From contig DAIDJG010000355.1 of NCBI GenBank assembly GCA_027451445.1, forward strand, positions 1 through 64,000: a stretch of 64,000 nucleotides of DNA, written 5' to 3'. The position numbers and the translations under genes were made by a program. Position 1 is the stretch's first letter, and every line of letters begins with the position of its first letter. This DNA is from Singulisphaera sp. GTDB taxonomy: Bacteria; Planctomycetota; Planctomycetia; Isosphaerales; Isosphaeraceae. Positions 31,614 to 64,000 of this stretch are shown one piece after another. Under the pieces are notes generated by a model that saw nothing but the letters and a program-made list of their open reading frames with translations, was not told the DNA's origin and did not search any database.

Positions 31614-32741
31614 TCAAGCACGCATGCCGAGGGCCTTTGCGACCGCTTCGAGGAAGAAAAACTCGCCCCACATGACCGACTCATCGACACCCAGATTCTT
31701 GTGGAAATGATAAACGCCGTGCTTCAGGACGCCCTCCCACCCGGGCGTTTGGTCCGCCAGGTAGTGTTCCGAACAGAGGGAGTCGAGGATCGTCAGCGCG
31801 GCGCTGCGATAGCGCTCGCGGCGCAACGGGTCGGACGTCAAGCCCGAGACGTTCCACAGGCCGGAGGCGGCAATGGCCGCCGCGGAGCTGTCATCGATGC
31901 GGTCCGGGCCTTCAGGGACGTCGAAATCCCAGGGGGGGACCAAACTCTCAGGACAGCGCGCCAGGAAATGGTCCGCGTTGCGCTCGGCGACGGCGAGATC
32001 GGCCGGATTGCTCGTGTACGTGAATACGGTGCCGAAACCGTACAGCGACCAGGCCAGTCCGCGCGTCCAGTCGGAGTCGGCGCGGAGCCCCTGGTGGGTC
32101 GATTGGCGGAGGAATGAACCGGTCTCGAGGTCGAAAATGCCTTCGTGTGCCGTGCCACCGTTGGGTCGGACCAGGGTCCGTTCCGTGGTCCGGCAATGCG
32201 CGTCGGCGATGGCTCGCAGATTCGCGTCCCCCGTCTCGCGTGCCGCGTAAAAGATGAGCGGCACGTTCATCATGATGTCGATGAACAGGCTCTCGGGGGC
32301 GACAAACGACCGGAGGTATCGTCCCTTCGGATTGAACCGCAGCGTGAGCGTTCGCCCCGCGGTGATGAGCACCTCGTTGAGCCGCACATCACCGGTGCGG
32401 CGGTACCACGGAAGGTACGTGTTCAGGAAGATGAACCCCAGGTCATGAACGTCGCGGTCGTGCTGGCGGTGTTCGAGTAGTTTGGAATAATGCTCCGCCT
32501 GCTCATACCACCACGGCTCGCCCGTTCGCTCGGCAATCAGCCACATCATCCCCGCGTGGAAGCCGCCGCACCAGTCGGTCCAGAGCGGCCCTCCGTGCTG
32601 CCAGCGGCCGCCGACGGTGTAAATGGGGAAGTAATCGGGAGTACGCTCGATCATCGCACGGACCTGACGTGCGGCAAAATCGAACGCGCGCTCCAGACGG
32701 GGACGCAGCGCCGCTGGGTCGATGGCGCGGGGCTCAGCCAC
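31614..32741 (-). CDS. Glycoside hydrolase family 88-type unsaturated uronyl hydrolase
   Basis: A 375-residue (alpha/alpha)6-barrel enzyme of the GH88 type, which hydrates the unsaturated uronic residue left at the end of oligosaccharides by polysaccharide lyases. The conserved catalytic Asp is D100 in DVHDLGFIF, the second conserved Asp D155 in SLFIDIMMNVPL, and SDWTRGLAWSLYG matches the W-x-R-G-x-A-W block. No signal peptide is seen, so it is probably cytoplasmic. It lies directly upstream of the epimerase/dehydratase gene on the same strand, which may act on its uronate product. No lyase or transporter is in the window to define the polysaccharide. Confidence 0.92.
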   Translation of the reverse strand: MAEPRAIDPAALRPRLERAFDFAARQVRAMIERTPDYFPIYTVGGRWQHGGPLWTDWCGGFHAGMMWLIAERTGEPWWYEQAEHYSKLLEHRQHDRDVHDLGFIFLNTYLPWYRRTGDVRLNEVLITAGRTLTLRFNPKGRYLRSFVAPESLFIDIMMNVPLIFYAARETGDANLRAIADAHCRTTERTLVRPNGGTAHEGIFDLETGSFLRQSTHQGLRADSDWTRGLAWSLYGFGTVFTYTSNPADLAVAERNADHFLARCPESLVPPWDFDVPEGPDRIDDSSAAAIAASGLWNVSGLTSDPLRRERYRSAALTILDSLCSEHYLADQTPGWEGVLKHGVYHFHKNLGVDESVMWGEFFFLEAVAKALGMRA

Positions 32742-45724: not shown

Positions 45725-46822
45725 CTATGGACCGTCCAGGACGCGGCAGCTCCGCGCTTTCACGATCAGGCACACCGCCGCGCTGGGGCGCAGGTCGAGC
45801 GCGGCGACCGCCGGCGCGACCACGCTGGCGATCCAGCAGACGCCCTCCGTCCGTACCACGATCTCGGCCTCCGGGCCGTGCGGCACGATCCGCTCGACTA
45901 GGCCATCGATGAGGTTCCGTGCGCTTAGACCGGCAAGCGGGCCACGAGCGAGCAAGATCTCGTCGGCCCGCACTTCGACGAACACGCGACTTCCGACTTC
46001 CCTCGGTTCGTACGGCACGACCAGGGACGGACCGTTCTCTACACGAAGATGTGTTTCGCCGCCGTCGGGAGCGTGCCCCTCGATGACGGCGGCAAAGAGG
46101 TTGCGCACCCCTTCGAGGTGAGTTGCCGCTCCGGTATGACGTGCGAGCACTTCCAGGGGGGAACCTTCCTCGATGATCGTTCCTGCCGAGAGCAGGAACA
46201 GTCGGGAACCCAGCGCGATGGCCTCCGCCGGACTGTGCGTGACGTAGAGCAGAGGAATATCTTCCGCTCGCTGGACAATTCGCAGGCGTTCCAGGAGCGT
46301 ATGCCGGCTGGCGAGGTCCAGCGCCGAGACCGGTTCGTCGCAGAGCAGCAATCGTGGACGAGGTGCCAACGCCCTCGCCAGACCGACCCGCTGGCGCTCG
46401 CCACCGGAGAGCGTGGTTGGAGTGCGGCCCAGGAGCGGTTCCACACCGCAAAGTGTAGCAACCGCGTTGACCCGATCATCGGCCTGCCGTTTGGGCTGCC
46501 CTTTCAGGCCGAAGCGGATATTGGAGGCGACGTTGAGATGAGGGAAGAGCAGGTCGTCTTGAAAGATCATGCCGATGCGTCGATGACGAAGCGGCACGTT
46601 GATGCCCGCCGACGCGTCAAACAGCACATCGTTTTCGACTCGGACATGCCCGCGGTCCGGGGCGGTGAGTCCCGCGATGAGACGCAGGATCGTCGTCTTG
46701 CCGGTCCCCGACGGTCCAAAGAGGACCCCGCATTCCGGCCCCAGCGAAAGGCCCACGTCGAGTTTGAGGGCTGGGTGGATCCGATGTTCCAGACGAACAT
46801 CGAGGGCACGGTGGGCGCTCAA
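45725..46822 (-). CDS. modC: Molybdate ABC transporter ATP-binding protein ModC
   Basis: A 365-residue ATPase energising molybdate uptake. Walker A is GPSGTGKTT (36-44), the signature LSGGERQRV (138-146), Walker B LLLCDEPVSALD (158-169), the switch His in YVTHSPAEA, and a C-terminal molybdate-binding TOBE-type domain (about 290-355) follows. I propose TTG at 46822 as start: TTGA overlaps the modB stop by 3 bases, giving a coupled operon and the usual ModC length. The frame stays open to 46894 over modB, where nothing similar is encoded. Last gene of modABC. Confidence 0.92.
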   Translation of the reverse strand: MSAHRALDVRLEHRIHPALKLDVGLSLGPECGVLFGPSGTGKTTILRLIAGLTAPDRGHVRVENDVLFDASAGINVPLRHRRIGMIFQDDLLFPHLNVASNIRFGLKGQPKRQADDRVNAVATLCGVEPLLGRTPTTLSGGERQRVGLARALAPRPRLLLCDEPVSALDLASRHTLLERLRIVQRAEDIPLLYVTHSPAEAIALGSRLFLLSAGTIIEEGSPLEVLARHTGAATHLEGVRNLFAAVIEGHAPDGGETHLRVENGPSLVVPYEPREVGSRVFVEVRADEILLARGPLAGLSARNLIDGLVERIVPHGPEAEIVVRTEGVCWIASVVAPAVAALDLRPSAAVCLIVKARSCRVLDGP

Positions 46823-47496
46823 CGTCCAAGCCCTCGTGCGGGCAGACCTCGCTGGGTCAAACAGAGCGCGACAATCGAGACGATCGAGATCCAAGCCGTC
46901 AACCAGCCGGCGCGGTCCATCTGGCCCGGTGTATTCACGGCGTCGTAGATCGCGAGCGATGCCGTTCGTGTCACCCCTTCGATGTTACCACCGACCATCA
47001 GCGTGGCTCCGAAGTCGCCGAGGGCGCGTGTAAAGGCGAGCAGCGCACCGGCCACAATTCCCCGCCAGGCGAGGGGGACCGTCACTGAAAGGAAGACCGA
47101 CAACTCCCCGCGACCGAGCAGCCGAGCGGCATCCTCGAGATTCGGGTCCACGCTTTCGATCGCGCCCCTTGCCGGCAAAAGGAACAGAGGAAACGCCGCC
47201 ACGGCAGACGCGATGACGATTCCCGACCAGTGGAAAACCAGGGTCACGCCGAACGTCTGTTCGAGCCACAACCCCAACCACGCCCGTCGCCCCAGGATCT
47301 GGAGCAGGTAGAACCCGAGGACAGTGGGTGGCAAAACCAACGGGAGTGTGAGGACACCCGCGAGTAGGCCCTTCCCCGCGAAACGTCCTCTGGCCAGCAG
47401 CAACGCGAGCGGCACGCCCAACGTCGCAATGAGCAGCGTCGCCAGAGAGGCGACCCGAAGCGAGAGCCAGAGCGGTGCAAAGTCTGCGGAATTCAC
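46819..47496 (-). CDS. modB: Molybdate ABC transporter permease ModB
   Basis: A 225-residue inner-membrane permease with five or six membrane helices; TLPLVLPPTVLGFYLLQIL and the cytoplasmic EAA-type loop (EDAARLLGRGELSVF, then VTVPLAWRGIVAGALLAFTRALGDFGATLMVGG) are typical of ModB. The start is GTG at 47496, 29 bases after modA. It ends at TGA overlapping the modC TTG start. Length normal. Confidence 0.94.
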   Translation of the reverse strand: MNSADFAPLWLSLRVASLATLLIATLGVPLALLLARGRFAGKGLLAGVLTLPLVLPPTVLGFYLLQILGRRAWLGLWLEQTFGVTLVFHWSGIVIASAVAAFPLFLLPARGAIESVDPNLEDAARLLGRGELSVFLSVTVPLAWRGIVAGALLAFTRALGDFGATLMVGGNIEGVTRTASLAIYDAVNTPGQMDRAGWLTAWISIVSIVALCLTQRGLPARGLGR

Positions 47497-47525
47497 AGTG
47501 GTTCGACTCAGCGATCTCGAAACGC

Positions 47526-48350
47526 TCAGGGGGCAGGTTTCACCATCGAAAATCCGAACTCCGCAAAGCCGTTCTGCCCCTCGACACTTAAGAGGAAGTC
47601 GACAAACTTCTGGGCGTCCGGCAGGCGTTTGGTTCTGGTGACAATCCCCAGACCCTGGACGATCGGTTTATAGAGAGCGCGGTCGATCTCAATCAACCGG
47701 ACCTTCCTGGACGCAGAAGCTATCGATTTACCGACGAGTGCGGCTTCGGCATTCCCAGTCTCCACAAACTGAAGTGCCTGTCGAACGGATTCGGTTTGAA
47801 CAATCTTCGGTTCAACCTTTTTCCAGACCTCACTGCGCTCAAGGGCTTGTTTGCCGGCGACTCCGTAGGGGGCGAATGCCGGGTTCGCGATCGCGATTCT
47901 CTTGATGTCGGGACTGCTACTAAGATCCGTCAAAGCGTGGATCGATGCCCCGGAATCGGGATGAACCGCAAGTACAAGCGAGCCGAACGCATACGTGGAG
48001 ACACTCTCGGGGACGACGGCGCCATCCTTCGCCAGATCTTCCACAAAGGAGCGGTTGGCCGAGAGGAAAACATCGAACGGGGCCGCCGCCTTGATTTGCT
48101 CGGCCAGTTGACCGGACGCACCAAACGTGGGGCTCACTTCCACGCCGGATTTCTTGGTGAACCGTGCGGCCAGAACCGGGAGGGCGGTTTGAAGGTCTGA
48201 GGCGGAGGCGACGCGCAGAGGTTCGGGTTTGGGAGCGGCCGCTGGCGGTTGTTGCGAATTGCCACAACCGCTGGCCCAGCCAAGCGCAGCAAGGACGAGC
48301 CAGCCGGGCAGGGCCAAACGTCTCGCTGTGGACTGCATGAAAACACTCAA
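47526..48350 (-). CDS. modA: Molybdate-binding periplasmic lipoprotein ModA
   Basis: A 274-residue substrate-binding protein. Its N-terminus has a hydrophobic segment and lipobox GWASGC (about 25-30), so it is membrane-anchored by lipid. The fold begins at LRVASASDLQTALPVLAARF; ASGQLAEQI, FDVFLSANR, IAIANPAFAPYG and the C-terminal FVDFLLSVEGQ match the ModA family. It binds molybdate or tungstate. The in-frame ATG at residue 5 (48338) is an alternative start. First gene of the minus-strand modABC operon, divergent from the P-loop NTPase gene. No ModE site recognised. Confidence 0.92.
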   Translation of the reverse strand: MSVFMQSTARRLALPGWLVLAALGWASGCGNSQQPPAAAPKPEPLRVASASDLQTALPVLAARFTKKSGVEVSPTFGASGQLAEQIKAAAPFDVFLSANRSFVEDLAKDGAVVPESVSTYAFGSLVLAVHPDSGASIHALTDLSSSPDIKRIAIANPAFAPYGVAGKQALERSEVWKKVEPKIVQTESVRQALQFVETGNAEAALVGKSIASASRKVRLIEIDRALYKPIVQGLGIVTRTKRLPDAQKFVDFLLSVEGQNGFAEFGFSMVKPAP

Positions 48351-48572: not shown

Positions 48573-50045
48573 ATGAAGACTGAACAGTTCTTGAAACATC
48601 ACGGAATCGGCGGCAATCCGTTCAGCGAAGAAGATGCACAGACCGACACTGTCTTCAAGCGGCGATGCCTCTCCACGATCCACCACCCGGCCTGGGACAA
48701 GTTCTTCGGCAGCCCGGCGGATCCGTCCACGGCGCTCGTCTTCGGCGAGAAAGGCAGCGGCAAGACCGCGCTCCGCCTTCAGGCGATGGCCGAGTTCGAC
48801 GCCTTCAACCAGGCGCACCCGAACGAACGCGTTTTCGTCATCTCATACGACGACTTCAATCCCTACCTCGACCACTTCAGGACCGCCGTCCGCGCCAAGG
48901 ACACCGCCCAGGCCCTGACCCGCTGGCGTCTGCAGGACCATATGGACGCGATCCTGGCCCAGGGCGTGACCCGCCTGGTGGATTCCGTCACGGCGGAACG
49001 GAGCAACCTTTCTTCACTGACCCTCGATCAGCGCCGCGACCTTCTGCTGCTGGCGGCGCTCTATGACCAGTCCACCGGCGAGCCCATCGAACGGCGCTGG
49101 AGCCGGTTGCGTCGACGGTCTGGGTTCCGGCCGCTTTGGTCCCGGCGCGACCTGCAGATCGGTTTTGGAACAACGCTCATCGTGGCGGCGCTCCTCTTCT
49201 TGATCCCAGCCTTGCGCAACTGGAGTGCTTTGCCCTGGCTGCTCTTGCCGATCGTCCTGGGCTGGGTCTACTGGGGCTGGAGGCTCGCTCGAGCGGAGTG
49301 GTATGCACGGGACATCCGCAAAGGGCTCCGCGTACTCAGCCGAGATCCTTCCGCCTTGCGCTGGGAACTGCTCTGGTTCAAGCCGAGCGAGCTGGGAGGC
49401 CAACCGGTTCCCCTGGCGTCAGGGGGGGGCGAGGAGCGGTACGAGCTGCTTCGCAAGTTTCAAGGCGTGCTTCAGACGCTTGGATACGCGGGGATTATCG
49501 TCCTCGTCGACCGGGTCGACGAACCCCAGGCCGTTGAAGGCGACCCACGCAAGATGCGTGCGCTCGTCTGGCCGCTGCTGGACCACAAGTTTTTGCGGCA
49601 TCCCGGCATCGGTCTGAAGCTGTTGCTGCCGATCGAGCTCGCCTACTATCTCGAGAAGGAAGACAAGGAGTTTTACGACCGCGCCCGTCCCGACAAGCTG
49701 AACATGATCAAGCCCCTGCGCTGGAGCGGTACGTCGCTCTATGACCTCGCAGGCGACCGGCTCCGCGCCTGCGCGATCGAGCCTTCGAACAACGGCGACG
49801 GTGGACCGAGGCTGCGCCAGATCATCGATGAGGCCGTCAGCGACGATTCACTGAAGGACGCGCTCGGCAACCTACGCACCCCAAGGCAGCTCTTCAAGTT
49901 CTTGCACCGGCTGGTGGAAGAACATTGCCACCGCCACACCGAGGACAGTCCGCGCTGGTCGATCGACGCCGACACATTCCGTACAACCTATTCAGCCTAC
50001 ATCCGTGACCTGGAGGCGTTCGATCGTGGCTACGGCCACGGTTGA
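48573..50045 (+). CDS. Membrane-spanning P-loop NTPase (KAP/STAND-like)
   Basis: A 490-residue protein. Walker A is FGEKGSGKTAL (57-67), Walker B is IIVLVD (308-313) with an acidic E316, separated by an insert that contains two membrane helices (195-213 and 218-236), so the ATPase is split around a membrane hairpin as in KAP-type NTPases. N-terminal GNPFSEEDAQ resembles the start of AAA/ORC-like ATPases. A C-terminal helical winged-type region (about 385-470, RQLFKFLHRLVEEH) follows. The ATG at 48573 has GGAAGGA upstream. The role is unknown; its place next to the giant surface-protein gene may be coincidence. Confidence 0.8.
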   Translation: MKTEQFLKHHGIGGNPFSEEDAQTDTVFKRRCLSTIHHPAWDKFFGSPADPSTALVFGEKGSGKTALRLQAMAEFDAFNQAHPNERVFVISYDDFNPYLDHFRTAVRAKDTAQALTRWRLQDHMDAILAQGVTRLVDSVTAERSNLSSLTLDQRRDLLLLAALYDQSTGEPIERRWSRLRRRSGFRPLWSRRDLQIGFGTTLIVAALLFLIPALRNWSALPWLLLPIVLGWVYWGWRLARAEWYARDIRKGLRVLSRDPSALRWELLWFKPSELGGQPVPLASGGGEERYELLRKFQGVLQTLGYAGIIVLVDRVDEPQAVEGDPRKMRALVWPLLDHKFLRHPGIGLKLLLPIELAYYLEKEDKEFYDRARPDKLNMIKPLRWSGTSLYDLAGDRLRACAIEPSNNGDGGPRLRQIIDEAVSDDSLKDALGNLRTPRQLFKFLHRLVEEHCHRHTEDSPRWSIDADTFRTTYSAYIRDLEAFDRGYGHG

Positions 50046-50416: not shown

Positions 50417-53400
50417 ATGCGTCTACTCCGGGGAACGGGATCTCGCGATCGGCAATGGAGGTCGGTGGGTCGAGAGCGACTGTCGGCCTGGGTTGAGCGG
50501 CTGGAAGACCGGACGCTGCTAGCGATCACGGCGACCAATTCCCCCGTCACCGTCACTGCGCCGACGACCGGCACGGCGACCGCCACGGTCATGATCCACG
50601 ACGATATCCCTCTCTACACCCTTAACTGGTCCACGGTGGATGGGACTGCAAAGGCGGGGACGGATTACACAGCGACCAGCGGGACCGCGCTTGCCCAGAC
50701 CAACCCCTCGTCGGTCCCAATCACGATCCTTGCAAGTCCCACGTTCCATGCACCGCTTTCCTTCACTCTGAACTTTGGCGACGGTGTCGTTTCGGGGTCG
50801 GCGACGATTACCATTAACAGTGGCGTCAGTGCGCCGACCGTCACCCTGAGCCATTCCTCCCCGACCATCTCGGAAAACGGTGGGACCGACACTCTGACGG
50901 CGACACTCGCCTCAGCGGTATCGGTAGCCACGACCGTGAACCTCGCCTACACCGGCACCGCTGCCGCCAGCACATACACTGCGCCCGCCACGATCACGAT
51001 CCCCGCAAACGCGACGACGGGGACCGGGACGATCACCGCGATCAACAATCCGGCATACAACCCGGTCACCTCGACAACCGTCATTGCGACCATTTCCTCG
51101 GTCTCCGGCGACCCGAACGAGACGGTGGGAACGCCGAACTCCGTTACGACGACCATCCAGGAGAGCACGACAGCGCCGACCCTCACGCTAAGCGCAATGC
51201 CCACGACGGTCGCCGATACCGCAGGCACGTCGACGATCACGGCGACGTTGTCCGGCACTCAGACCGTCGACGAGACCATTCCGCTTACGTTCAGCGGCAC
51301 AGCCATGGAGGGAACGGACTACACCGTCACTCCAACCACGATCACCGTCCCTGCCGGAAAGACGACGGGCACCGCAACGCTGACGGCCATGAATCCCGGT
51401 GTATTCGGCCCGACCCTTACGGCAACCATCGGCGACAGCAGCGACAACACGGTGGCGCCCGTCAGCGTGATGATCACGAACTCGAACCCGATGCCGAACG
51501 TCTCCCTGTCCGCCACGGGGACTCCGTTTAACGAAGCGGGGAACACGGCGACCATCACGGCGACGCTCTCCGCCAAATCGGGTGAGGATACGACCGTCAA
51601 CCTGACCTACGGCGGGACCGCCGTTCAAGGTACGAACTACAGCGTCTCCGGCTCGACGATCACGATCCCGGCTGGTCAGACGACCGGCAGTGTGACGGTC
51701 ACCGGCATCGACAACATGATGTACGACCTCGGATACACCGTCACGGCGATGATTTCGTCCGCGACCGGTGCGACTCCGATGGGCACAACGTCGGTTACCC
51801 TCCAGGAACAAAACAACGATCCGCCCCCTACCGCGACCCTGCAGGCGTTCGGCAGCCCGATCTCCGAGCAAGGCGGGATCGCGACCATCGTCGCGACCCT
51901 GGACGCGCCGTCGACGCTGACGACCACCGTCAACCTGAGCTACGGCGGCAGCGCCACAAGTAAGCAGTACACGCCTTCGGGTAGCTCGATCACGATCCCG
52001 CCGGGTGGTACCACCGGCAGCGTGACGATCACGGGCGTTGACGACAACAGTTACGGGCCCAACGTCACGGTCCTCGCCGCGATTCAGAGTGTGACCAACG
52101 GGGAGGTCTCGTCCCCGCCACCGCCACCCGCTTCGGTCACGATCACGGAGGAAGACTCTCCGCCCACCGTGACTTTGAGTCAGACCGGCAACCCCGCTGC
52201 TGAGAACGGCGGCGTGGCCACCGTGACCGCGACGCTGTCGTCCGCCTCCGGATTTCCGACGACGGTCAACCTGGCCTTCTCCGGCACCGCCACGTCAACC
52301 CAATACCTGGCGTCCGCCAACTCGATCACGATCCCGGCGGGTCAGACCACAGGAAGCATCACGATCACGGGCGTCGACGACAACGTCTATGGGCCCAACG
52401 TCACCGTCATCTCCAAGATCACCAGCGCGATGAACGCGACGGTGAACGGGACGCAGTCGGTCACGACCACGATCACTGAGGGCGACTCACCGCCCAATGT
52501 CTCGCTCATCGCGATGGGCAATCCGTTCATGGAACAGGGGGGCGTGGCCTCCGTCGTCGCCAACCTCTCGGCCGCTTCGCAACTCCCCACCACGGTCAAA
52601 CTGACCTTCGGCGGCACGGCCGTCAAGGACACGAACTACACCGCCTCGAGCGACACCATCACGATCCCCGCGGGCCAGCTCAGCGGCAGCATCACGCTGA
52701 CAGGCATTGACACGGGCATCTACAACACGGGCTACACCGTCACAGCCACAATCGCGAGTGCCACCAATGCGACCCCGGCGGGGACGACCACGGTCACGAT
52801 CACCGAGACCAACAGCGATCCGCCCCCGGCCGTGACCTTGAGCATCTCCCAGAGCACGATCAACGAGAACGGCGGCGTCGCGCAAGTGATCGCCACCCAG
52901 AGCTCGTCGTCGACGCTGACGACGAGCATCAACCTGACGTTCGGCGGCAGCGCGATTCAGGGCACGAACTACACGACCTCGGGCGCGACGATCACGATTC
53001 CGGCCGGGCAGACCACCGGCACGGCCACGATCACCGGCGTCGACGACAAGACCTTCGACGCGAACACGAACGTCACGGCGGCGATCCAGAGCGTGACGAA
53101 CGCCCAGTACTTCCCGCCGCAGCAGGTGAGCGTCCAGATCAACAACGTTGACCTCCCGCCGGCCGTGACGCTGAGCCAGATGGGCAGTCCCATCGCGGAG
53201 ATGGGGGGGACCGGAACGGTCACGGCGACGCTTTCGGCGGCTTCCGGGTTCCCCACAACGGTCAACCTCGGATACTCCGGCACGGCAATTCCCACGACGC
53301 AGTACACCACGTCCGGCAACTCGATTACGATCCCCGCCGGCCAGACCACCGGCAACGTGACGATCACCGGGGCCAGCGACAGCAAATTCGGGCCGAACGT

Positions 53401-56400
53401 TACGGTCGTGACCACGATCACGAGCGCGACGAACGCGACGGTGAACGGGACGCAGTCGGTATCGCAGACGATCACCGAGGGCGACAACCAGCCGACCGTC
53501 TCGCTCGCGACCATGAGCAGTCCGTTCTCGGAGAACGGGGGTACGGCGTCCATCGTCGCCAACCTATCGGCGGTCTCGGCCCAGGCGACGACGGTCAATC
53601 TGACGCTCGGCGGGACGGCGGTCTCCGGCACGAACTACAACATCGCGAGCACGACGATCACGATTCCCGCGGGCTCGCTGAGCGGGAGCGTCAGCGTCAC
53701 GGGCATCAACGACAACGAGTTCAGCAACGGCTACACGGTCGTGGCCACGATCGCTACCGCGTCAGGCGCCATGCCGAACGGGGTGACGTCGGTCACGCTC
53801 AAGGAAACCGAGGCGTCACCGCCGCCGACGGTCACCCTCGGCCTGTCGGGTAGCCCGTTGGCCGAGAACGGCGGCGTGGCAACGATCACTGCGACGCAGA
53901 ACGAGCTTTCGCTGGTGCCGACGACGGTCACCCTCGCCTACACCGGCACCGCGACGCCCACCACCCAGTACACGACCTCGGCCAACTCGATCACGATTCC
54001 GGCCGGGCAGATGTCCGGAACGGCGACGATCACCGGCGTCGACGACAAGATGTTCGGGCCGAACGTCACCGTCATCGCCTCCATTCAGAGCGTGACCAAC
54101 GGCCAGTTCGCGCCGCAGCAAGTCACGGCGACGATCAACGAGGTGGACCCCGAGCCCACCGTCTCCCTGAGCCAGACCGGGAGCCCGATTGCCGAGAACG
54201 GCGGTACGGGGACGGTGACCGCGACCCTTTCGGCCGCCTCCACGTTACCGACGACGGTCAACCTGACCTTCTCCGGGACCGCAACGCCGACGACGCAGTA
54301 CACGACGTCGGCCAATTCGATCACCATCCCTCCTGGACAAACGACGGGCAGCGTCACGCTCGCCGGCGTCGATGACAACAAGTTTGGGCCGAACGTGACC
54401 GTGGTCAGCACGATCAGCGGTGTGACCAACGCGATTGCGGCGAGTCCCCAAACGGTGACAACCACGATCACCGAAGGAGACCCGGCGCCCACCGTCATGC
54501 TCTCGGAGACCGGTTCTCCGTCGACGGACAACGGCGGAGTGATCACTGTCACCGCAACGCTCTCCACGGTCGAGAATCTGCCGGCGACGATCAACCTGTC
54601 GTTCGGTGGAAACGCCGTGAGCGGGGTCAACTACATCCCCTCGGGCAATTCGATCACGATTCCGGCCGGGCAGACGTCGGGCAGCATTACCCTCACGGGC
54701 AAGACCACGGGTCAGTTCGGGCCGCCCGAAATCGTGGTCGTGTCGATCGCCAATGCGACCAACGCAACTCCCGCGGGCGGTTCGGTCTCCGCCGTGTTCA
54801 ACCCGAGCGTGGCTGCGCCGGACTTTTCGGTGAATGACGTCACCGTCAGTCAAAACAGCCCGGCCGCGACCTTCGTCGTCTCGCTATCCGCGCCGAGCAT
54901 GTTGCCGGCGACGGTGAACTACTACACGCAAGATGGTCCGCCGCCAAATGGAGCCGTCGCGGGGATCGACTATGCGTCGACGAGCGGCACGCTCACCTTC
55001 TCGCCCGGCCAGACCGCTCAGACGGTCTCGGTTCCCATCATCAAGAATCCGACGCTGCGCCCGCCCACGGCCACCTTCACGCTCAACCTGATCAATCCGA
55101 CGAACTCGGGGATCTCCCAGGGGACCGGCACCGCGACCTTGCTCACCACGGGCACGGCACCCCAGGCCACGATCAGCAACGCGACGATCCTCAAGACGAC
55201 GTCAGGCACGACGACGGTCAACGTCAACGTGACCCTGTCGGCCCCGAGCGACGTCACGGGCACCGTCAACTTTACGACGGTCGACCAGTCGGCCATGGCG
55301 GGCACCGATTACGTCGCCACGAACGGTGTCCTCACATTCGCCCCCGGTGTGGTCTTCCAGACGATTCCGATCACGATCATCGGCAGCTCGATCCCGGAAG
55401 GGACGCGCATGTTCGGCGTCACCCTGTCGAACCCGATGAACATGACGCTCGCCAACACCCAGGCGACGGTTACCATCAATGACCCCAATCCCCCGGCGGG
55501 GATCTACGTCACGCCGGCCACGGTCGATCAAGGAAGCTCGACGCCGACCACGGCGACCTTCAACGTCTTCCTTACGACTCCCAGCAAGAACCCGGTGTCG
55601 GTCAATTACTCGACCCAGAACGGCACCGCGATCGCCGGGACCGACTACCTCGCGACGAGTGGAGTTCTGAATTTCCCGGCGAACTCCAGCGGCCCGCTTC
55701 AGATCACCGTGCCGATTCTGGGCGTGACCGTTCCCGCAGCCCCGAAGCAATTCACCATCAATCTCGCGAACGCGGTGAATTCAACGATCAGCATCGGTCA
55801 AGCGACCGGGACGATCTTCGACACGTTGAGCAATCCCAACCTGTCGATCAACAACGTGCAGGTCATCGTGCCGCAGACCGGCGCTCCGCCGAGCGCAGTG
55901 TTCACCGTCTCGCTCACCGGCCAAAGCAGCTTGCCGGTCACGGTGAATTACTCCACGTCGAACATCACAGCGATCGCAGGCACCGACTACACCCAGACTT
56001 CCGGGACGTTGACGTTCGCACCGGGCACGGCGACGCAGACGATCACGGTGCCGATCCTCTCGAATACCGCGCTCAAAGCCAGCTCCACATTCGCGGTCAA
56101 CCTGTTCGCGCCCAGCAACGCGACGATCGCCACCAACATGGGCACGGGCACGATTATCAACGACAACCTGGGCCAGTCGCTCACGGTCGGCGACGTGGTC
56201 ACGACGTCGAGCAACGTCGATGGTGCGCTCACGAACGCCATGTTCACCATCAATCTCTCGACCGTCACGCCCTTGCCGGTGGTCGTGAACTACAGCACGA
56301 GCGACGGGACCGCCAAGGCGGGGACCGACTATGTCGCAACCTCGGGACAGGTCATCATTCCGGCCGGGCAGACCTCGGCCACGGTCAATGTCCCGATCAT

Positions 56401-59400
56401 CGGCAGCAGCAAGAATGCGCCTCAGAAGCAGTTCACGTTCAATCTGAGCAACCCGCAAAACGCAGCGATCGCGCGAGGGACCGCCAACGGCATCATTTTG
56501 AGCGGGGCGGCTCAACCGCTGATCGACGTCGTCGACCTTCCCAACGCGCCGGTCGACACGAGCAGCGGCCAGGCGGTGTTCTCGCTCTTCCTCAACGCGC
56601 CGAGTCAGCAGACGATCACCGTCCAGTATCAGACGATCGACGGCACCGCCGTGGCCGGGGCGGATTATGTGGCGACTGCCGGGACGGCCACGTTCCAGCC
56701 CGGCCAGATGACCGCGCTCATCACGGTTCCGTTGCTCAAGGATCCGGTTTACAAGCCGACGTCCGAATTCAGCCTGAAGGTGTTCAACGCGACCAACGCT
56801 GGCTTCGTCATGCCGGGCGACCCGATCATCACCACGACGCTCATCAACAGCAGCGCAGGGCCATCGGTCAGCGTGAACGACTTCAGCCAGACGAAGACGA
56901 CGTCGGGCGAGGTCAACGCGGTCGCCACATTGACGCTCTCTCAACCCAGCGCCGTGGCTGTGGTCGTCAATTACCACACACAGAACATCACGGCGATCGC
57001 GGGCACCGACTACGTCAGCGAGGTCGGCGCCGTCACCTTCCAGCCGGGCCAGGTCACTCAGACCGTTGACATTCCGATCATCGGCAGCACGATCCCCGAA
57101 GGGACGCGCACCTTCGCGCTCGACCTCGACACGACCACCGTCGGAAGCATTGCCCGGGCGCAGGGGATCGGCACGATTCTCGACATCAACCCGCCCGCGG
57201 GAATCTCGATCGGCAACGCCAACGTAACCCAGAGCGGCTCGAGCCAGACCACTGCAACCTTCGCGGTCACGCTCGCGACGCCGAGCGCCCTTCCGGTCAC
57301 GGTCCAGTACGCCACCGCCAACGGCTCCGCCCAGTTGGGGATCGACTACCTGCCGACAAGCGGGACGCTCACGTTCCCGGCCGGAACGACGACCGAAAAC
57401 ATCAACGTAACTGTGCTGGGATCGACCGTCCCCGAACCGCTCGAGTCGTTCACGGTCAACCTGTCGAACCCCGTCAACTCGACGATCATGGTCGGCCAGG
57501 GGACTGGCCTCATCCTGAATACCGTCACGGCCCCGTCAATCTCGATCACGAGCACAGTCTCGGTCACCGAGCCGCAGAAAAACCCGACGAACGCGATCTT
57601 CAACGTCACGCTGTCCGGTCCGAGCGAGCTGCCCATCACGGTCAACTACAACACAGCCGACATCACCGCTCAGGCCGGCGCCGACTATACGGCCGTGAGC
57701 GGCACGCTCACTTTCGCACCGGGCCAGACGGTGCAGACCATCAGCGTGCCGGTGCTCCCGGGCACCACATTGGGTCCCGACAAGACGTTCGCCGTCAACC
57801 TCTCCGGGGCGACCAACGCGTCGATCAACAACGCGTCCGGCACAGCGACCATTCATAACTCGAACGCGATCTCGCTGTTGTCGACCAACGACGCGATCGT
57901 GAGCGACGGCACCGCGGGCGCCACCGCGACGTTCACGGTAACGCTCGCCCAGCCCAGTCTCTTGCCCGTCACGGTGCAATACGCCACGGCGGACGGTACC
58001 GCCATCGCCGGCACCGACTACCAGGCCGCGTCCGGCCTGCTCACCTTCGCTCCCGGTCAAACAAGCCAGACGATCAACGTGACGGTCCTGGGCGACACAC
58101 TGAACCAGCCCACCAAGAAGTTCACGGTGGCCCTCAGCAACCCCCAGAACGCGACCCTGGGCCGCGCGACGGGTAACGGGATCATCAACAACACGATCGC
58201 GCAGCCCGCGGTTTCGGTCAACAACGTCAGCGCAGTGAACGGCACCAGCCCCAACGCCGTGTTCACCGTCTCGCTGTCGGGACCGAGCGGCCAGCCAATC
58301 ACGGTGAATTACACGACGATCGACGGTACCGCCATCGCGGGAGTCGACTACACAACGACGAGCGGTACGCTCACGTTTGCCCCGGGCCAGACGAGCGAGC
58401 TCGTCTCGGTGCCGATTTTGAAGGACAACGTGTTCGGGCCGCCGACGAGAACGTTCCAGCTCCTCCTCTCGAACCCGTCGAATGCCAGTCTCGCCGCTTC
58501 GGCGGGCACGGCGACGATCCTGAGCAACGTCCTGCCGCCATCGGTGAGCATCAACAACTTCAGTCAGTTGAAGACGACCAGCGGCGTGGTCAACGCCACG
58601 GCAACGTTATCGCTCTCCGCGCCGAGCAGCGTGCCCGCGACCGTCTTCTACCATACGGCCGACATCACGGCGATGGCGGGTGTGGACTATGTGTCCGAGA
58701 CGGGATCCGTGACGTTCCAGCCCGGTCAGATCACGCAAACGATCAGCATTCCGATCATCGGCAGCACGGTTCCTGAAGGGACGCGTTCATTCGCGGTCGA
58801 TCTCGACATGGCGACCGGTGCACTGATCGCGACACCGCAGGGCATCGGTACGATTCTCGATATCAACCCGCCTGCCGGCCTTCTGATCAGCAACGCCACC
58901 GCGACCGTGTCCGGGCCCGCGCAAACGACGGCTACATTCACCGTCACGCTCGCAACCGCCAGCGCACAGCCGATTTCCGTCAATTACACGACCATCAACG
59001 GTTCCGCCATCGCGGGCACCGACTATCTCGCCACCAGCGGCATCCTCACCTTCCCGGCCGGTCAGACGTTGGAAACCATCGCGGTCCCGGTCCTCGGCTC
59101 CTCCCTCCCGCAGCCCACGAAGACGTTCACGGTTGCGCTTTCGAGCGCCGTGAATTCGACGATTATGGTGGGACAGGGGACGGGAACGATCTTCAATACG
59201 GTCCCGGCCCCGAGCCTCAACATTGCAAGCGTGTCGGTCACCAAGCCGCAGATGAATCCGACGAACGCGGTCTTCAACGTCACGCTCTCGTCGCCGAGCA
59301 CTCTGCCCGTCACCGTGAATTACAACACGGCCGATATCACGGCTCAGGCCGGCACCGATTACACGCAGGCCAGCGGTACGCTCACGTTCGCGCCAGGTCA

Positions 59401-62400
59401 AACCGTGCAGACGATTACCGTGCCCGTCCTTCCGGGCACGGCGATTGGCCCCAACGTCACCTTCGCCGTGAACCTTTCGGGCGCGTCCAACGCCACGCTG
59501 GGCAACATGCAGGGTGTCGGGACGATCGTGAACAACAACCTGGCGCACGACATCACGGTCAACGACGTGCTGACGCCGCTGCCGGCCGCGGGTCAGCAAA
59601 CGACGGCGATGTTCACCGTCACGCTCTCGGCGTCCAGCACACTGCCGATCACGGTCAACTACGCGACGGCCGACGCCTCGGCCATCGCTGGAACGGACTA
59701 CATCGCGACGGCGGGAACCCTCACGTTCGCGCCGGGCACCACACAGCAAATGGTCCCGGTCACCATCCTGGGCAGCAACGCCGTCGGCCCGCAGAAGACG
59801 TTCGACCTGAACCTCAGCGCCCCCCAGAACGGTGTGATCACGCGGGCGCAGGGCGTGGGCTTCATCCTCAATAACAACCCGAATCCACTCTTCTCGGTCG
59901 GCAACGTGGGGGTCACCAACGAGACGCCGACCGCGACCTTCGTCGTTTCGCTCTCCGGCCCGAGCACGCTGCCCATCACCGTTCAGTACACAACCGTCAA
60001 CGGCACCGCGCTCGCGGGCCGCGAGTACACAACGACTTCGGGCACGCTGACCTTCGCGCCTGGACAGACGAGCGAACTCGTCACGGTGCCGATCCTGAAG
60101 GACGCGGTCTTCGGCCCGACGCCGGAGACGTTCACGCTGATGCTCTCGAATCCCACAAACGCGGGGATCACGAACGCGACGGGAACGGGCACCATCGTCA
60201 ACGACACGCAGCCTCCTGCCGTCACGATCAACGACTTCAGCCAGTTGAAGACGACTGCCGGCACGGTCAACGCCACTGCGACGCTCTCGCTCTCAGCACC
60301 GAGCGAGTTGCCGACGACGGTCTTCTACCACACCGCGGACATCACGGCGGTCGCCGGAGTGGACTACGTGGCGGAGACCGGCACGGTCACCTTCGCCCCG
60401 GGCCAGCTCACCGCGACCATTAGCATTCCAATCATCGGCAGCACGACTCCCGAGGGCACGCGTACGTTCGCCGTCGACCTCGACATGGCCACCGGCGGCA
60501 TCATCGCACGGAACCAGGGCATCGGTACGATCCTCGACGTCAATCCGCCCGCGGGTGTCTCGATTCAAAACAGCTCGGTCACGGTGAACGGCCCGACGGG
60601 AACGACGGCCGATTTCACGGTCACGCTCGCTACGGCGAGCGCGCTGCCCGTCTCGGTGACTTACACGACGGTCAACGGCACAGCCGTGGCGGGAACGGAT
60701 TACACGGCGACAAGCGGGGTTCTCACCATCCCGGCCGGCCAGACCAGCGCGATGATCCTGGTGCCGGTTCTGGGCTCGTCCGTCCCCGAGCCGACGAAGA
60801 CTTTCCTGGTCGCTTTGTCCAATCCCGTGAATTCGACGATCATGGTGAGCCAGGCGACGGGCACGATTTTCAACACCGTCCCCGCGCCCAGCCTCAGTGT
60901 TGCCAGCGTCTCGGTCGTCAAGCCGCAGATGAATCCGACGAACGCAATCTTCAACGTGACACTTTCGTCGCCCAGCGGCCAGCCCGTCACCGTGAATTAC
61001 AACACGTCGGACATCACGGCCCAGGCCGGCACTGACTATACGCAGGTCAGCGGTACCCTTACGTTCGCGCCCGGCCAAACGGTTCAGACAATCACCGTAC
61101 CCATTTTGCCGGGCATGAACATCGGGCCTAACGTCACGTTCGCGGTGAACCTCTCGGGCGCGACGAACGCCACGGTCGCGATGGCGCAGGGCACCGGGAC
61201 GATCATCAACAACAATCTCGTTCATAACATCACGGTGAACGACGTATTGACACCCGTACCGGCGCAAGGCGCTACGACGACGGCGCTGTTCACCGTCACC
61301 CTTTCCTCGTCGAGCGCTTTGCCGATCACGGTCAATTACGCCACGTCGAATGGAACAGCCATCGCCGGCACCGACTACATCGCCACGGCCGGGACGCTCA
61401 CCTTTGCTCCAGGAACGACCACGCAGACGGTCTCCGTCACGGTGCTTGGCACCAACGTCAGCGAGCCCGAGAAGGTCTTCAACCTGAACCTGAGCTCTCC
61501 GCAGAACGCGGCCGTGACGCGTGCTCAAGGTCAGGGATTCCTGCTCAACACCGTCCCCGCTCCGACCGTGAACATCTCCAGCGTGCAGGTGGTCAAGCCG
61601 CAATCCGGATCGGCCAACGCCATCTTCAACGTGACCCTGTCCAGCGTGAGCGGTCAGCCGATCACCGTCAATTACAACACGATGGACCAGACCGCCCAGG
61701 CCGGTGTGGACTACACCCAGGAGAGCGGCACGCTCACCTTCCAGCCGGGCCAGACGGTGCAGACGATCACCGTGCCGATCCTGCCGGGCACCGCGATCGG
61801 CCCCAATGTCACGTTTGCGGTCAATCTCTCCGGGCCGTCCAACGCCACGATCGGCAATGGACAGGGCGTCGGCACGATCATCAACAACAACCTCGTCCAC
61901 AACATCACCGTGGGCGACGTGTTCACGCCCGCGCCGGCCAAGGGTAATACAGCACAGGCGGTCTTCACCGTCTCACTGACTTCGCCGAGCACGCTACCGA
62001 TCACGGTCAACTACGCGACCGCCGACGCCTCCGCCATTGCGGGTACCGATTACGTCGCGACCAGCGGGACGCTCACGTTCGCTCCCGGCACGACCTCGCA
62101 GACCGTCTCGGTGACGATTCTCGGGACCAATCTTGCCGGACCACAGAAGCAGTTCGCGCTGAACCTCACCAACGCGCAGAACGCGACCATCCTCCGCGCC
62201 CAGGCAAACGGCTTCATTGTCAACAACAACCCGAGCCCACTCTTCTCGGTCAGCAACGTCAGCGTCACCAACGAAACGCCCAACGCAATCTTCACCGTCT
62301 CGCTGTCGAGCCCGAGCTCCCTGCCGATTTCCGTGAGCTACAACACGGCTGACGGCACGGCGCAGGCCGGCCGAGAGTACACGTCGACGAACGGCACCCT

Positions 62401-64000
62401 GACCTTCGCCCCCGGCCAGACAAGCATGCTCGTCAGTGTTCCGATCCTGAAAGACGCCGTCTTCGGACCGACGCCCGAAACGTTCACGCTCAATCTCGCC
62501 AACCCGACGAACGCGACGATCCTTAACGGTTCGGGGACAGGAACGATCGTCAATGACACGCTACCACCGCAGGTCACCATCGCCGACTTCAGCCAGTTGA
62601 AGACGACATCGGGCACAGTGAACGCAACGGCGACGCTTACACTCTCCGCGCCCAGTGAGCTCCCGGCGACGGTCTACTATCACACCGCGAACATCACGGC
62701 GATCGCCGGAGTCGATTACACGCAGGAGATCGGGTCCGTCACCTTCCAACCCGGTCAGTTGACCCAGACGATTCAGATCCCGATCATTGGCAGTACGGTT
62801 CCGGAAGGGACCCGGACCTTCGCGGTCGACCTCGACATGGCCTCGGGCGCGATCATCGCCCGGAACCAGGCGATCGGCACGATCCTCGACGTCAATCCGC
62901 CCGTCGGCCTATCGATCCAGAACACGACGGTCATCGTCAGCGGACCGAGCGGCAACACCGCACACTTCACCGTCACCCTGGCCACGGCCAGTGCACTGCC
63001 GGTGTCGGTGTCGTATACCACCGTTAACGGCACTGCGCTCGCCGGCACCGATTATCTGGCCACGAGCGGAATCCTGACGTTCCCGGCCGGTCAGACGACG
63101 GAGTCGATCGATGTGCCGGTCCTCGGCAGTTCGGTCCCCGAGGCGATCAAGACGTTCTCCGTGGCTCTGTCGAACTCCGTGAACTCGACCATCCTGGTCG
63201 GCCAGGGAACCGCCACGATCATCAACACGGTGGCCGCACCCGGGCTGAGCATCAACAGCGTTTCGGTGATCCAGCCGCAGGCCGGGACGGCGAATGCGGT
63301 CTTCAACGTCACGCTTTCCGGCCCGAGCACGCTTCCCATTACGGTGAACTTCAACACGGCCGACCAGACGGCGCTTGCTGGGCTCAACTACACCCAGGAA
63401 AGCGGCACGCTCACGTTCCAACCGGGTCAGACCGTGCAGACGATCACGGTACCGATCCTGCCCAGCACGGCCCTCGGCCCGAACCTGACTTTCGCCGTGA
63501 ATCTCTCAGGCGCATCGAACGCCGATGTGATCACGGCACAAGGCATCGGCACGATCATCAACAACAACTTGGTTCATGACCTGGTCGTTGGCGACGCGAC
63601 AGTTGTCGCTCCCAGGGCGGGTGGCACCGCGACGGCAATGTTCACCGTCACGCTCTCTTCGATCAGCGCGCTGCCGGTCACGGTTGACTACTCCACGGCC
63701 GATGGCACCGCCGTCGCAGGGACCGATTACCTCGCAGCCGTGGGTCAACTGCTCTTCAATCCGGGCGAAACGACCCAAACGGTCTCCGTCACGATCCTGG
63801 GACAGGCCTTGAGCGGGCCGCAGAAGAACTTCACACTCAACCTCACCACACCGCAGAACGCAGTCATCACGCGTGCCCAGGGCATGGGCATCATCCTCAA
63901 CGACGTAGCGGCGCCGCTCATTTCCGTCGCCGACATCAACGTCACGAGCGCCAGCCCGATGGCGACGTTCACCGTCGTGCTCTCCAGCCCGAGTTCCCAG
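50417..64000 (+). CDS. Giant Calx-beta repeat surface protein (partial, runs off the window)
   Basis: A single reading frame from ATG 50417 to the window edge, at least 4528 codons without a stop in the parts I translated. Residues 29-35 read LEDRTLL, an N-terminal motif like that of many giant planctomycete exported proteins. From about residue 140 onward it is a chain of approximately 110-residue Calx-beta-type beta-sandwich modules, Thr/Ser/Val-rich and apparently Cys-free. Two subtypes follow each other: N-terminal modules with SITIPAGQTTGSxTITGVDDN (to about 54840), and later ones with the classical DGTAxAGTDYxATSG and LTFAPGQT blocks, where Asp and Glu should bind calcium. It probably acts as an adhesin or extracellular stalk. 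The gene has no usable end here; the ribosome-binding site is weak. Confidence 0.88.
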   Translation, partial: MRLLRGTGSRDRQWRSVGRERLSAWVERLEDRTLLAITATNSPVTVTAPTTGTATATVMIHDDIPLYTLNWSTVDGTAKAGTDYTATSGTALAQTNPSSVPITILASPTFHAPLSFTLNFGDGVVSGSATITINSGVSAPTVTLSHSSPTISENGGTDTLTATLASAVSVATTVNLAYTGTAAASTYTAPATITIPANATTGTGTITAINNPAYNPVTSTTVIATISSVSGDPNETVGTPNSVTTTIQESTTAPTLTLSAMPTTVADTAGTSTITATLSGTQTVDETIPLTFSGTAMEGTDYTVTPTTITVPAGKTTGTATLTAMNPGVFGPTLTATIGDSSDNTVAPVSVMITNSNPMPNVSLSATGTPFNEAGNTATITATLSAKSGEDTTVNLTYGGTAVQGTNYSVSGSTITIPAGQTTGSVTVTGIDNMMYDLGYTVTAMISSATGATPMGTTSVTLQEQNNDPPPTATLQAFGSPISEQGGIATIVATLDAPSTLTTTVNLSYGGSATSKQYTPSGSSITIPPGGTTGSVTITGVDDNSYGPNVTVLAAIQSVTNGEVSSPPPPPASVTITEEDSPPTVTLSQTGNPAAENGGVATVTATLSSASGFPTTVNLAFSGTATSTQYLASANSITIPAGQTTGSITITGVDDNVYGPNVTVISKITSAMNATVNGTQSVTTTITEGDSPPNVSLIAMGNPFMEQGGVASVVANLSAASQLPTTVKLTFGGTAVKDTNYTASSDTITIPAGQLSGSITLTGIDTGIYNTGYTVTATIASATNATPAGTTTVTITETNSDPPPAVTLSISQSTINENGGVAQVIATQSSSSTLTTSINLTFGGSAIQGTNYTTSGATITIPAGQTTGTATITGVDDKTFDANTNVTAAIQSVTNAQYFPPQQVSVQINNVDLPPAVTLSQMGSPIAEMGGTGTVTATLSAASGFPTTVNLGYSGTAIPTTQYTTSGNSITIPAGQTTGNVTITGASDSKFGPNVTVVTTITSATNATVNGTQSVSQTITEGDNQPTVSLATMSSPFSENGGTASIVANLSAVSAQATTVNLTLGGTAVSGTNYNIASTTITIPAGSLSGSVSVTGINDNEFSNGYTVVATIATASGAMPNGVTSVTLKETEASPPPTVTLGLSGSPLAENGGVATITATQNELSLVPTTVTLAYTGTATPTTQYTTSANSITIPAGQMSGTATITGVDDKMFGPNVTVIASIQSVTNGQFAPQQVTATINEVDPEPTVSLSQTGSPIAENGGTGTVTATLSAASTLPTTVNLTFSGTATPTTQYTTSANSITIPPGQTTGSVTLAGVDDNKFGPNVTVVSTISGVTNAIAASPQTVTTTITEGDPAPTVMLSETGSPSTDNGGVITVTATLSTVENLPATINLSFGGNAVSGVNYIPSGNSITIPAGQTSGSITLTGKTTGQFGPPEIVVVSIANATNATPAGGSVSAVFNPSVAAPDFSVNDVTVSQNSPAATFVVSLSAPSMLPATVNYYTQDGPPPNGAVAGIDYASTSGTLTFSPGQTAQTVSVPIIKNPTLRPPTATFTLNLINPTNSGISQGTGTATLLTTGTAPQATISNATILKTTSGTTTVNVNVTLSAPSDVTGTVNFTTVDQSAMAGTDYVATNGVLTFAPGVVFQTIPITIIGSSIPEGTRMFGVTLSNPMNMTLANTQATVTINDPNPPAGIYVTPATVDQGSSTPTTATFNVFLTTPSKNPVSVNYSTQNGTAIAGTDYLATSGVLNFPANSSGPLQITVPILGVTVPAAPKQFTINLANAVNSTISIGQATGTIFDTLSNPNLSINNVQVIVPQTGAPPSAVFTVSLTGQSSLPVTVNYSTSNITAIAGTDYTQTSGTLTFAPGTATQTITVPILSNTALKASSTFAVNLFAPSNATIATNMGTGTIINDNLGQSLTVGDVVTTSSNVDGALTNAMFTINLSTVTPLPVVVNYSTSDGTAKAGTDYVATSGQVIIPAGQTSATVNVPIIGSSKNAPQKQFTFNLSNPQNAAIARGTANGIILSGAAQPLIDVVDLPNAPVDTSSGQAVFSLFLNAPSQQTITVQYQTIDGTAVAGADYVATAGTATFQPGQMTALITVPLLKDPVYKPTSEFSLKVFNATNAGFVMPGDPIITTTLINSSAGPSVSVNDFSQTKTTSGEVNAVATLTLSQPSAVAVVVNYHTQNITAIAGTDYVSEVGAVTFQPGQVTQTVDIPIIGSTIPEGTRTFALDLDTTTVGSIARAQGIGTILDINPPAGISIGNANVTQSGSSQTTATFAVTLATPSALPVTVQYATANGSAQLGIDYLPTSGTLTFPAGTTTENINVTVLGSTVPEPLESFTVNLSNPVNSTIMVGQGTGLILNTVTAPSISITSTVSVTEPQKNPTNAIFNVTLSGPSELPITVNYNTADITAQAGADYTAVSGTLTFAPGQTVQTISVPVLPGTTLGPDKTFAVNLSGATNASINNASGTATIHNSNAISLLSTNDAIVSDGTAGATATFTVTLAQPSLLPVTVQYATADGTAIAGTDYQAASGLLTFAPGQTSQTINVTVLGDTLNQPTKKFTVALSNPQNATLGRATGNGIINNTIAQPAVSVNNVSAVNGTSPNAVFTVSLSGPSGQPITVNYTTIDGTAIAGVDYTTTSGTLTFAPGQTSELVSVPILKDNVFGPPTRTFQLLLSNPSNASLAASAGTATILSNVLPPSVSINNFSQLKTTSGVVNATATLSLSAPSSVPATVFYHTADITAMAGVDYVSETGSVTFQPGQITQTISIPIIGSTVPEGTRSFAVDLDMATGALIATPQGIGTILDINPPAGLLISNATATVSGPAQTTATFTVTLATASAQPISVNYTTINGSAIAGTDYLATSGILTFPAGQTLETIAVPVLGSSLPQPTKTFTVALSSAVNSTIMVGQGTGTIFNTVPAPSLNIASVSVTKPQMNPTNAVFNVTLSSPSTLPVTVNYNTADITAQAGTDYTQASGTLTFAPGQTVQTITVPVLPGTAIGPNVTFAVNLSGASNATLGNMQGVGTIVNNNLAHDITVNDVLTPLPAAGQQTTAMFTVTLSASSTLPITVNYATADASAIAGTDYIATAGTLTFAPGTTQQMVPVTILGSNAVGPQKTFDLNLSAPQNGVITRAQGVGFILNNNPNPLFSVGNVGVTNETPTATFVVSLSGPSTLPITVQYTTVNGTALAGREYTTTSGTLTFAPGQTSELVTVPILKDAVFGPTPETFTLMLSNPTNAGITNATGTGTIVNDTQPPAVTINDFSQLKTTAGTVNATATLSLSAPSELPTTVFYHTADITAVAGVDYVAETGTVTFAPGQLTATISIPIIGSTTPEGTRTFAVDLDMATGGIIARNQGIGTILDVNPPAGVSIQNSSVTVNGPTGTTADFTVTLATASALPVSVTYTTVNGTAVAGTDYTATSGVLTIPAGQTSAMILVPVLGSSVPEPTKTFLVALSNPVNSTIMVSQATGTIFNTVPAPSLSVASVSVVKPQMNPTNAIFNVTLSSPSGQPVTVNYNTSDITAQAGTDYTQVSGTLTFAPGQTVQTITVPILPGMNIGPNVTFAVNLSGATNATVAMAQGTGTIINNNLVHNITVNDVLTPVPAQGATTTALFTVTLSSSSALPITVNYATSNGTAIAGTDYIATAGTLTFAPGTTTQTVSVTVLGTNVSEPEKVFNLNLSSPQNAAVTRAQGQGFLLNTVPAPTVNISSVQVVKPQSGSANAIFNVTLSSVSGQPITVNYNTMDQTAQAGVDYTQESGTLTFQPGQTVQTITVPILPGTAIGPNVTFAVNLSGPSNATIGNGQGVGTIINNNLVHNITVGDVFTPAPAKGNTAQAVFTVSLTSPSTLPITVNYATADASAIAGTDYVATSGTLTFAPGTTSQTVSVTILGTNLAGPQKQFALNLTNAQNATILRAQANGFIVNNNPSPLFSVSNVSVTNETPNAIFTVSLSSPSSLPISVSYNTADGTAQAGREYTSTNGTLTFAPGQTSMLVSVPILKDAVFGPTPETFTLNLANPTNATILNGSGTGTIVNDTLPPQVTIADFSQLKTTSGTVNATATLTLSAPSELPATVYYHTANITAIAGVDYTQEIGSVTFQPGQLTQTIQIPIIGSTVPEGTRTFAVDLDMASGAIIARNQAIGTILDVNPPVGLSIQNTTVIVSGPSGNTAHFTVTLATASALPVSVSYTTVNGTALAGTDYLATSGILTFPAGQTTESIDVPVLGSSVPEAIKTFSVALSNSVNSTILVGQGTATIINTVAAPGLSINSVSVIQPQAGTANAVFNVTLSGPSTLPITVNFNTADQTALAGLNYTQESGTLTFQPGQTVQTITVPILPSTALGPNLTFAVNLSGASNADVITAQGIGTIINNNLVHDLVVGDATVVAPRAGGTATAMFTVTLSSISALPVTVDYSTADGTAVAGTDYLAAVGQLLFNPGETTQTVSVTILGQALSGPQKNFTLNLTTPQNAVITRAQGMGIILNDVAAPLISVADINVTSASPMATFTVVLSSPSSQ
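52169..54840 (+). repeat. 996-base higher-order repeat inside the giant gene
   Basis: Equivalent codons of the module that opens with TLSQ-type residues lie at 52181, 53177 and 54173, exactly 996 bases apart (332 residues, three modules of about 111). The three modules inside each unit are distinct from each other but match their counterparts in the next unit, so triplets were duplicated as blocks. Confidence 0.82.
55193..62602 (+). repeat. 1677-base higher-order repeat with one expanded copy
   Basis: The anchor KTT(S/A)G codons start at 55193, 56894, 58571, 60248 and 62600, spacings of 1701, 1677, 1677 and 2352 bases. The 1677-base unit is five modules (559 residues); the last interval is 675 bases longer, equal to two extra modules of about 112 residues. 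Confidence 0.82.

Follow-up and report, generated by a model that had tools for sequence, protein, structure and literature searches.

Two joined arrays of beta-sandwich modules, probably amplified in blocks of three and of five, in a giant gene of Singulisphaera sp.

The A-band of titin contains two super-repeat zones, one with six copies of a unit of 7 domains and one with eleven copies of a unit of 11 domains; domains at the same position are the most alike, most strongly so in the middle copies, and the longer unit has been explained by part-duplication of the shorter (PMC10665226). The portions of Bjorklund et al. (2006) used here describe the duplication of several domains at once, often in the middle of a protein, the mixing of unit sizes between regions of a single protein, and the units of seven in nebulin (PMC1553488), so that both multi-domain duplication and the presence of two super-repeat sizes in one protein are already known from nebulin and titin. 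Among long beta-sandwich proteins, LapA, MhLap and BapP are RTX/Bap adhesins with extender repeats (PMC7493085, PMC12153261), calcium in the linkers stiffens bacterial extender domains (PMC7493085), and ADGRV1/VLGR1 carries 35 Calx-beta motifs (PMC9262510). Planctomycete genes longer than 5 kb are reported as common, with lengths of up to about 36 kb, in accounts that, in the sections used here, do not analyse internal block structure (PMC5177795, PMC5352709, PMC11573180).

The window analysed here, a stretch of 64,000 nucleotides from a Singulisphaera sp. assembly, ends inside a giant gene on the + strand that starts with an ATG at 50417 and remains open through the window end at 64000. The contig (C355, 68,952 bp) extends past the window and carries the same open reading frame on to a TGA at 67487-67489, and the gene is complete within it, encoding 5,690 aa. 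The original prediction of a giant protein of at least 4500 residues is thus borne out, and the part of the frame that had still to be translated, where a stop codon was named as a possible refutation, is open up to that TGA.

We divided the protein with two home-made profiles and Pfam into 48 beta-sandwich modules (numbered 0-47) and a C-terminal beta-helix-like domain, in the order Arg-rich N-terminus, one divergent Calx-beta-like module, 12 LapA-type modules (aa 136-1465), 35 Calx-beta modules (aa 1466-5393) and a C-terminal domain of ~297 aa. All of these parts lie on the + strand. The Arg-rich segment (50417..50512), which includes the motif VERLEDRTLLA, is a probable export signal and reached the cut-off of no NCBIfam or Pfam family; it is followed by module 0 (50513..50821) and by two LapA-type modules that stand outside the triplets (modules 1-2, 50822..51481). 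Pfam LapA (PF20579, cut-off 27 bits) scores 133.7 bits over the N-terminal region; when modules were scanned singly, five of the ten tested exceeded 27 bits and four fell below, while module 7 scored better as Calx-beta. Pfam Calx-beta (PF03160, cut-off 27 bits) matches 35 stretches (18 + 17) within aa 1451-5690, with scores of 861 and 837 bits, and among PDB sequences the Calx-beta part matches 3rb7 and 3us9 with E-values down to 2.5e-22. AlphaFold models of triplet modules 6-8 and of quintet modules 28-32 gave three beta-sandwiches (mean pLDDT 92) and five Calx-beta sandwiches (mean pLDDT 87) respectively, the angle between modules not being fixed by the quintet model, whose pTM is low (0.38). 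Foldseek matched the calcium-binding domains of NCX1 and CALX, with other beta-sandwich chains as the top-ranked hits. The C-terminal domain (contig 66596-67486) has no match in Pfam, NCBIfam, PHROGs or PDB sequences; our reading of its repeated N-x-I-G-G and N-x-I-G-T motifs suggests a right-handed beta-helix of pectin-lyase-like type, and related stretches occur in 43 of the 59 genomes searched.

Both arrays are periodic at a level above the single module. The autocorrelation of the DNA has its peak at a lag of 999 bp over the first part and of 1677 bp over the second, with 2352 bp (1677 + 675) close behind; Tandem Repeats Finder, at periods up to 500, reported no module array at the DNA level. 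The triplets, predicted at 996 bases, are real but have lengths of 999, 999 and 996 bp (333, 333 and 332 aa) and leave out three of the 12 LapA-type modules, being made up of modules 3-11 (modules 3-5, 51482..52480; modules 6-8, 52481..53479; modules 9-11, 53480..54475). Module 12 (54476..54811), the last of LapA type, is out of triplet register and forms the border between the arrays. The predicted quintets of 1677 bases were found as units 1-5 of 566, 563, 560, 559 and 559 aa: unit 1 (modules 13-17, 54812..56509), the most diverged full unit, unit 2 (modules 18-22, 56510..58198), unit 3 (modules 23-27, 58199..59878), unit 4 (modules 28-32, 59879..61555; 1677 bp) and unit 5 (modules 35-39, 62231..63907; 1677 bp). 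By position in the units, modules 13-17, 18-22, 23-27, 28-32 and 35-39 each read ABCDE, modules 33-34 read DE and modules 40-42 read ABC. The extra D-E pair (modules 33-34, 61556..62230) follows unit 4, producing an ABCDEDE arrangement and adding exactly 225 aa (675 bp). Only ABC is securely classed in unit 6 (modules 40-44, 63908..65575 of the contig), after which modules 45-47 run to contig position 66595; modules 43-47 have no clean fit to any of the five classes.

That modules at the same place in successive units resemble each other more than they resemble their neighbours, as had been proposed, is upheld by permutation in both arrays. For modules 3-11 the identity at lag 3 is 0.623 against 0.528 expected, with 15 of 20,000 shuffles as high, and for modules 13-47 the identity at lag 5 is 0.551 against 0.442 expected, a value that none of 5,000 shuffles reached. 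Adjacent modules in the Calx-beta part are less alike than average (identity 0.415), and lags 7, 10 and 12 are likewise above chance, as multiples of five together with the inserted pair predict. In a maximum-likelihood tree of the modules with outgroup modules, classes A (99/94), B (93/83) and C (100/97) each form one group, D and E are nearly single groups, and most D and E modules group by position. Lag tests and trees thus support the proposed duplication of blocks, with three modules to a block in one part and five in the other.

The change of period at about 54812 coincides with a change of family, from LapA-type PF20579 to Calx-beta PF03160, and single-module scans preferred LapA for most of the first-part modules tested. 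Two arrays of different origin, each with its own block size, were thus joined. The idea that a change of period within one gene records how such a protein grew survives as regards the two block sizes, but the record is one of two joined families and not of a single Calx-beta array, and it is blurred by age, the synonymous sites being nearly saturated.

A sister gene (L051) lies on the - strand of contig C167 of the same genome (~29185-32700) and encodes eight Calx-beta modules that precede the same C-terminal domain, which is 51% identical to that of the giant protein; its N-terminal motif, LEGLETRTLLT, is similar to the VERLEDRTLLA of the giant. We read its layout as a single ABCDE quintet followed by three tail modules and then the C-terminal domain. 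Profiles from the giant call its modules A-B-C-D-e-D-d-a, the first five with margins of 30, 37, 17, 30 and 5 bits. When its eight modules are set in order against modules 40-47 of the giant only 8 of 20,000 shuffles score as high, and its first five modules also match each of the quintet units in order, with between 15 and 187 of 20,000 shuffles reaching the observed value. Since the sister has the same quintet order, that order predates the expansion in the giant.

The age of the blocks was assessed at fourfold-degenerate sites, where same-position agreement is 0.44 in the core quintets, compared with 0.407 +/- 0.014 after shuffling of synonymous codons, and 0.52 in the triplets, compared with 0.434 +/- 0.021; shuffles as high as the observed likeness numbered 2 of 200 for the quintet core and 0 of 200 for the triplets. 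Silent sites are thus near saturation while same-position proteins in the quintet core are still ~72% identical, which indicates old duplications under purifying selection, the triplets being perhaps younger than the quintets. Recent or ongoing homogenisation is ruled out by the nearly saturated silent sites. The same figures show that amino-acid selection keeps the likeness, and the period could on that account be attributed to selection on position, with like-placed modules binding like partners, instead of to block duplication. We regard this as very improbable, as the silent-site likeness that is left exceeds the codon-shuffled expectation, and both the module trees and the order held in common with the sister gene indicate common descent; selection may well maintain what duplication made. 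It is more improbable still, to the point that we give it hardly any weight, that the giant gene is an assembly artefact. The source is a draft of 622 contigs with an estimated contamination of 4.8%, and misassembly over the repeats had been raised as a danger, but the longest exact repeat within the ~17-kb gene is 30 bp, with none of at least 31 bp, so that the gene can be assembled from ordinary short reads; it is moreover a single 17-kb open frame with no N bases, and its G+C content (64%) is close to that of the remainder of the window (63%).

The order of the duplications is weakly resolved. Units 3-5 are the most alike and the end units the most diverged: over modules ABC, units 4 and 5 are 79% identical, either is 51-54% identical to end units 1 and 6, and in the ABC tree units 4 and 5 are sisters (95/96). 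A sisterhood of units 3 and 4, an alternative named only after the tree had been seen, is disfavoured (p-AU 0.039). The D-E pair 31-32 is closest to pair 26-27 (78%), and both this and the ABC pattern would agree with a tandem duplication that took place recently and in the phase D-E-A-B-C. The claim that a unit was enlarged by exactly two modules is correct as to length and less secure as to the event. It implies that the D-E pair was duplicated locally and in tandem, which would explain why pairs 31-32 and 33-34 adjoin and are 72% identical, and their sisterhood is not rejected by AU tests (p 0.27-0.37), which rejected no alternative history of the extra pair. This origin is possible, though we incline against it: besides the affinity of pair 31-32 for 26-27, module 33 groups with module 38 (96/95) and not with its neighbour 31, pair 33-34 is no farther from 26-27 (74%) than from the neighbouring pair, and an extra quintet that had lost its three modules A-B-C would leave an arrangement that cannot be told from a unit enlarged by two modules. 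The history of the sister gene can also be read in two directions. In the module tree its modules p0 and p3 join modules 13 and 16 of unit 1, and p2 and p4 join modules 42 and 43 of unit 6, both end units, as if a deletion had joined the ends of a long array; because the sister's modules join different units, the ancestor may already have contained more than one quintet, and the sister could have arisen by contraction, with loss of the middle units on C167. One deletion should, however, switch cleanly from unit 1 to unit 6, whereas the partners run 13, unresolved, 42, 16 and 43; the internal branches of the tree are short and its end branches long, and by identity the sister's ABC is nearest to unit 6 (54%). 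We consider a shrunken sister rather unlikely, and prefer to see the one-quintet gene as the surviving short form.

The calcium-binding loop of the Calx-beta modules was examined at positions equivalent to D516, E520 and E523 of CALX, which we take, with the aid of a sequence alignment, to be ligand positions. These carry an acidic residue in 18, 31 and 6% of the 35 modules of the giant, compared with 90, 90 and 88% of 349 survey modules, for a mean of 0.54 loop acids per module over the three sites where most other arrays have 2-3. Acids at the module ends are also fewer (0.43 per module), by a crude count in the last ten columns, where the second ligand cluster is not reliably alignable. Loop acids have been lost likewise in the sister gene and in several further proteins of the same genome, and most of the tested Calx-beta modules at loci L051-L056 and L059 of this genome, and at L071 of the same genus, are without them, whereas none of the three acids is missing from family members G024, G064 and G013. 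The loss may be a trend of the whole lineage and not a peculiarity of the giant. The filing of these modules as Calx-beta is to be read as one of sequence family and fold, with no NCX-like calcium binding claimed. Their composition suggests little use of calcium for stiffening of the Calx-beta part, and the calcium-stiffening picture may not hold there.

Searches of 44 other genomes of the family, including the only one of the same genus, gave no ortholog of the quintets (best cross-genome identity ~46%), which leaves one gene and its sister as the sources for their history; the triplets likewise had no ortholog, with only generic matches of 24-31%. The same-genus gene L071 was considered as a counterpart of the giant and rejected on its different architecture. 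A single-sequence scan of genome contigs found nothing. With a profile, generic Calx-beta arrays came up in many phyla, among which the class models, circular when applied to the giant itself, recovered an ABCDE run only in the C167 sister; L075/L069 shows a four-module class run, some margins of which are at noise level. We surveyed 24 further reading frames, each of nine modules or more and two of which share a contig, and found super-periods of one, two and three modules; the giant is the longest of these arrays and its lag-5 signal is the strongest (z 8.5). Block growth is common in Calx-beta arrays, and a period of five alongside a separate period of three is unusual in this sample. A 28-module array in a Candidatus Rokuibacteriota MAG (L133) has a two-module super-period (z 5.8) with some identical copies, its block expansion being much younger than that of the giant; an 11-module array in a Verrucomicrobia subdivision 3 MAG (L118) has a three-module super-period (z 4.8), and arrays in Aliishimia and Roseivivax (L114/L117) have a two-module super-period (z 3.9). 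Large arrays also occur at L078, L079, L086 and L131, on MAG contigs labelled Akkermansia, Gemmatimonas, Klebsiella and Asaia; these species labels (e.g. Klebsiella pneumoniae) are unlikely, and the bins are probably mislabelled.

The neighbours of the giant gene that were tested encode a P-loop ATPase, an ABC importer with a substrate-binding protein, an XPB-like helicase and an aminotransferase, with no type I secretion genes among them. The gene directly upstream (48573-50045, +) is P-loop ATPase-like, with partial matches below cut-off to NF053860 (anti-phage protein) and NF047389, and is a possible defence gene. The importer set (45725-48350, -) comprises a substrate-binding protein (PF13531), a permease and an ATPase with a TOBE domain, and would by family be of the molybdate/tungstate type.

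Compared with the systems described above, the giant resembles titin in having two block sizes in one protein, position-specific likeness and middle copies that are closest, but titin is a muscle protein of Ig/FnIII domains whose longer unit presumably came from the shorter one, while in the present gene the modules are Calx-beta and LapA-type and the two periods belong to two domain families; the giant grows like titin and is not a titin-type member. Its autocorrelation signature is that of nebulin-type multi-domain duplication, although the examples in the portions of Bjorklund et al. (2006) used here are eukaryotic and do not include Calx-beta quintets (PMC1553488). With the RTX/Bap adhesins it has in common long tandem beta-sandwich arrays and a presumed spacer role, and LapA and BapP contain Calx-beta-like modules; it differs in the absence of adjoining type I secretion genes and of any RTX/haemolysin-type calcium-binding family among its Pfam matches, and in that extenders use calcium in linkers whereas its Calx-beta modules have lost most of the ligand acids. 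ADGRV1/VLGR1 is likewise a very large extracellular protein with 35 Calx-beta modules, but it is an animal receptor, and the equal count is probably a coincidence.

The best explanation overall, which we hold to be probable, is that this is the gene of an exported or surface fibre composed of two joined arrays that grew block-wise in tandem, and of which a one-quintet sister survives. The planctomycete, of Isosphaeraceae type, would carry this fibre on its surface or secrete it. Nine of the 12 modules of the LapA-type array would have been amplified as triplets, and the quintets of the Calx-beta array would go back to an ancestor built as [ABCDE]-tail-beta-helix, the one-quintet gene on C167 being its surviving sister. 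Growth would have proceeded by tandem duplication of whole blocks, presumably through unequal recombination, most lately in middle units 3-5, with the extra D-E pair arising from an out-of-register event. The string of ~48 beta-sandwiches may act as a spacer, holding the C-terminal domain either off the cell or against it, in which case length would be the property under selection and unequal recombination between blocks its likely source. A bolder reading, which we think unlikely in its entirety, is that the quintet is a selected functional unit as in titin, within a surface fibre that has no calcium stiffening in its Calx-beta part, in a lineage that tends to calcium-independent arrays, and with the sister as the single-unit ancestor; if this were true, growth from one unit to six could be reconstructed.

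In summary, the giant gene is a new, complete and well-readable example of a known mode of growth, and what is new in the present analysis is the sister gene and the low number of calcium-ligand acids in the 35 Calx-beta modules. The lengthening of giant repeat proteins has mostly been argued from eukaryotic examples, and this gene is bacterial. One genome holds both a long form, with six quintet positions and a pair, and a one-quintet short form with the same tail, which would make the order of block duplications testable given closer relatives, and the loss of ligand acids offers a testable exception to the rule of calcium-stiffened bacterial extenders.
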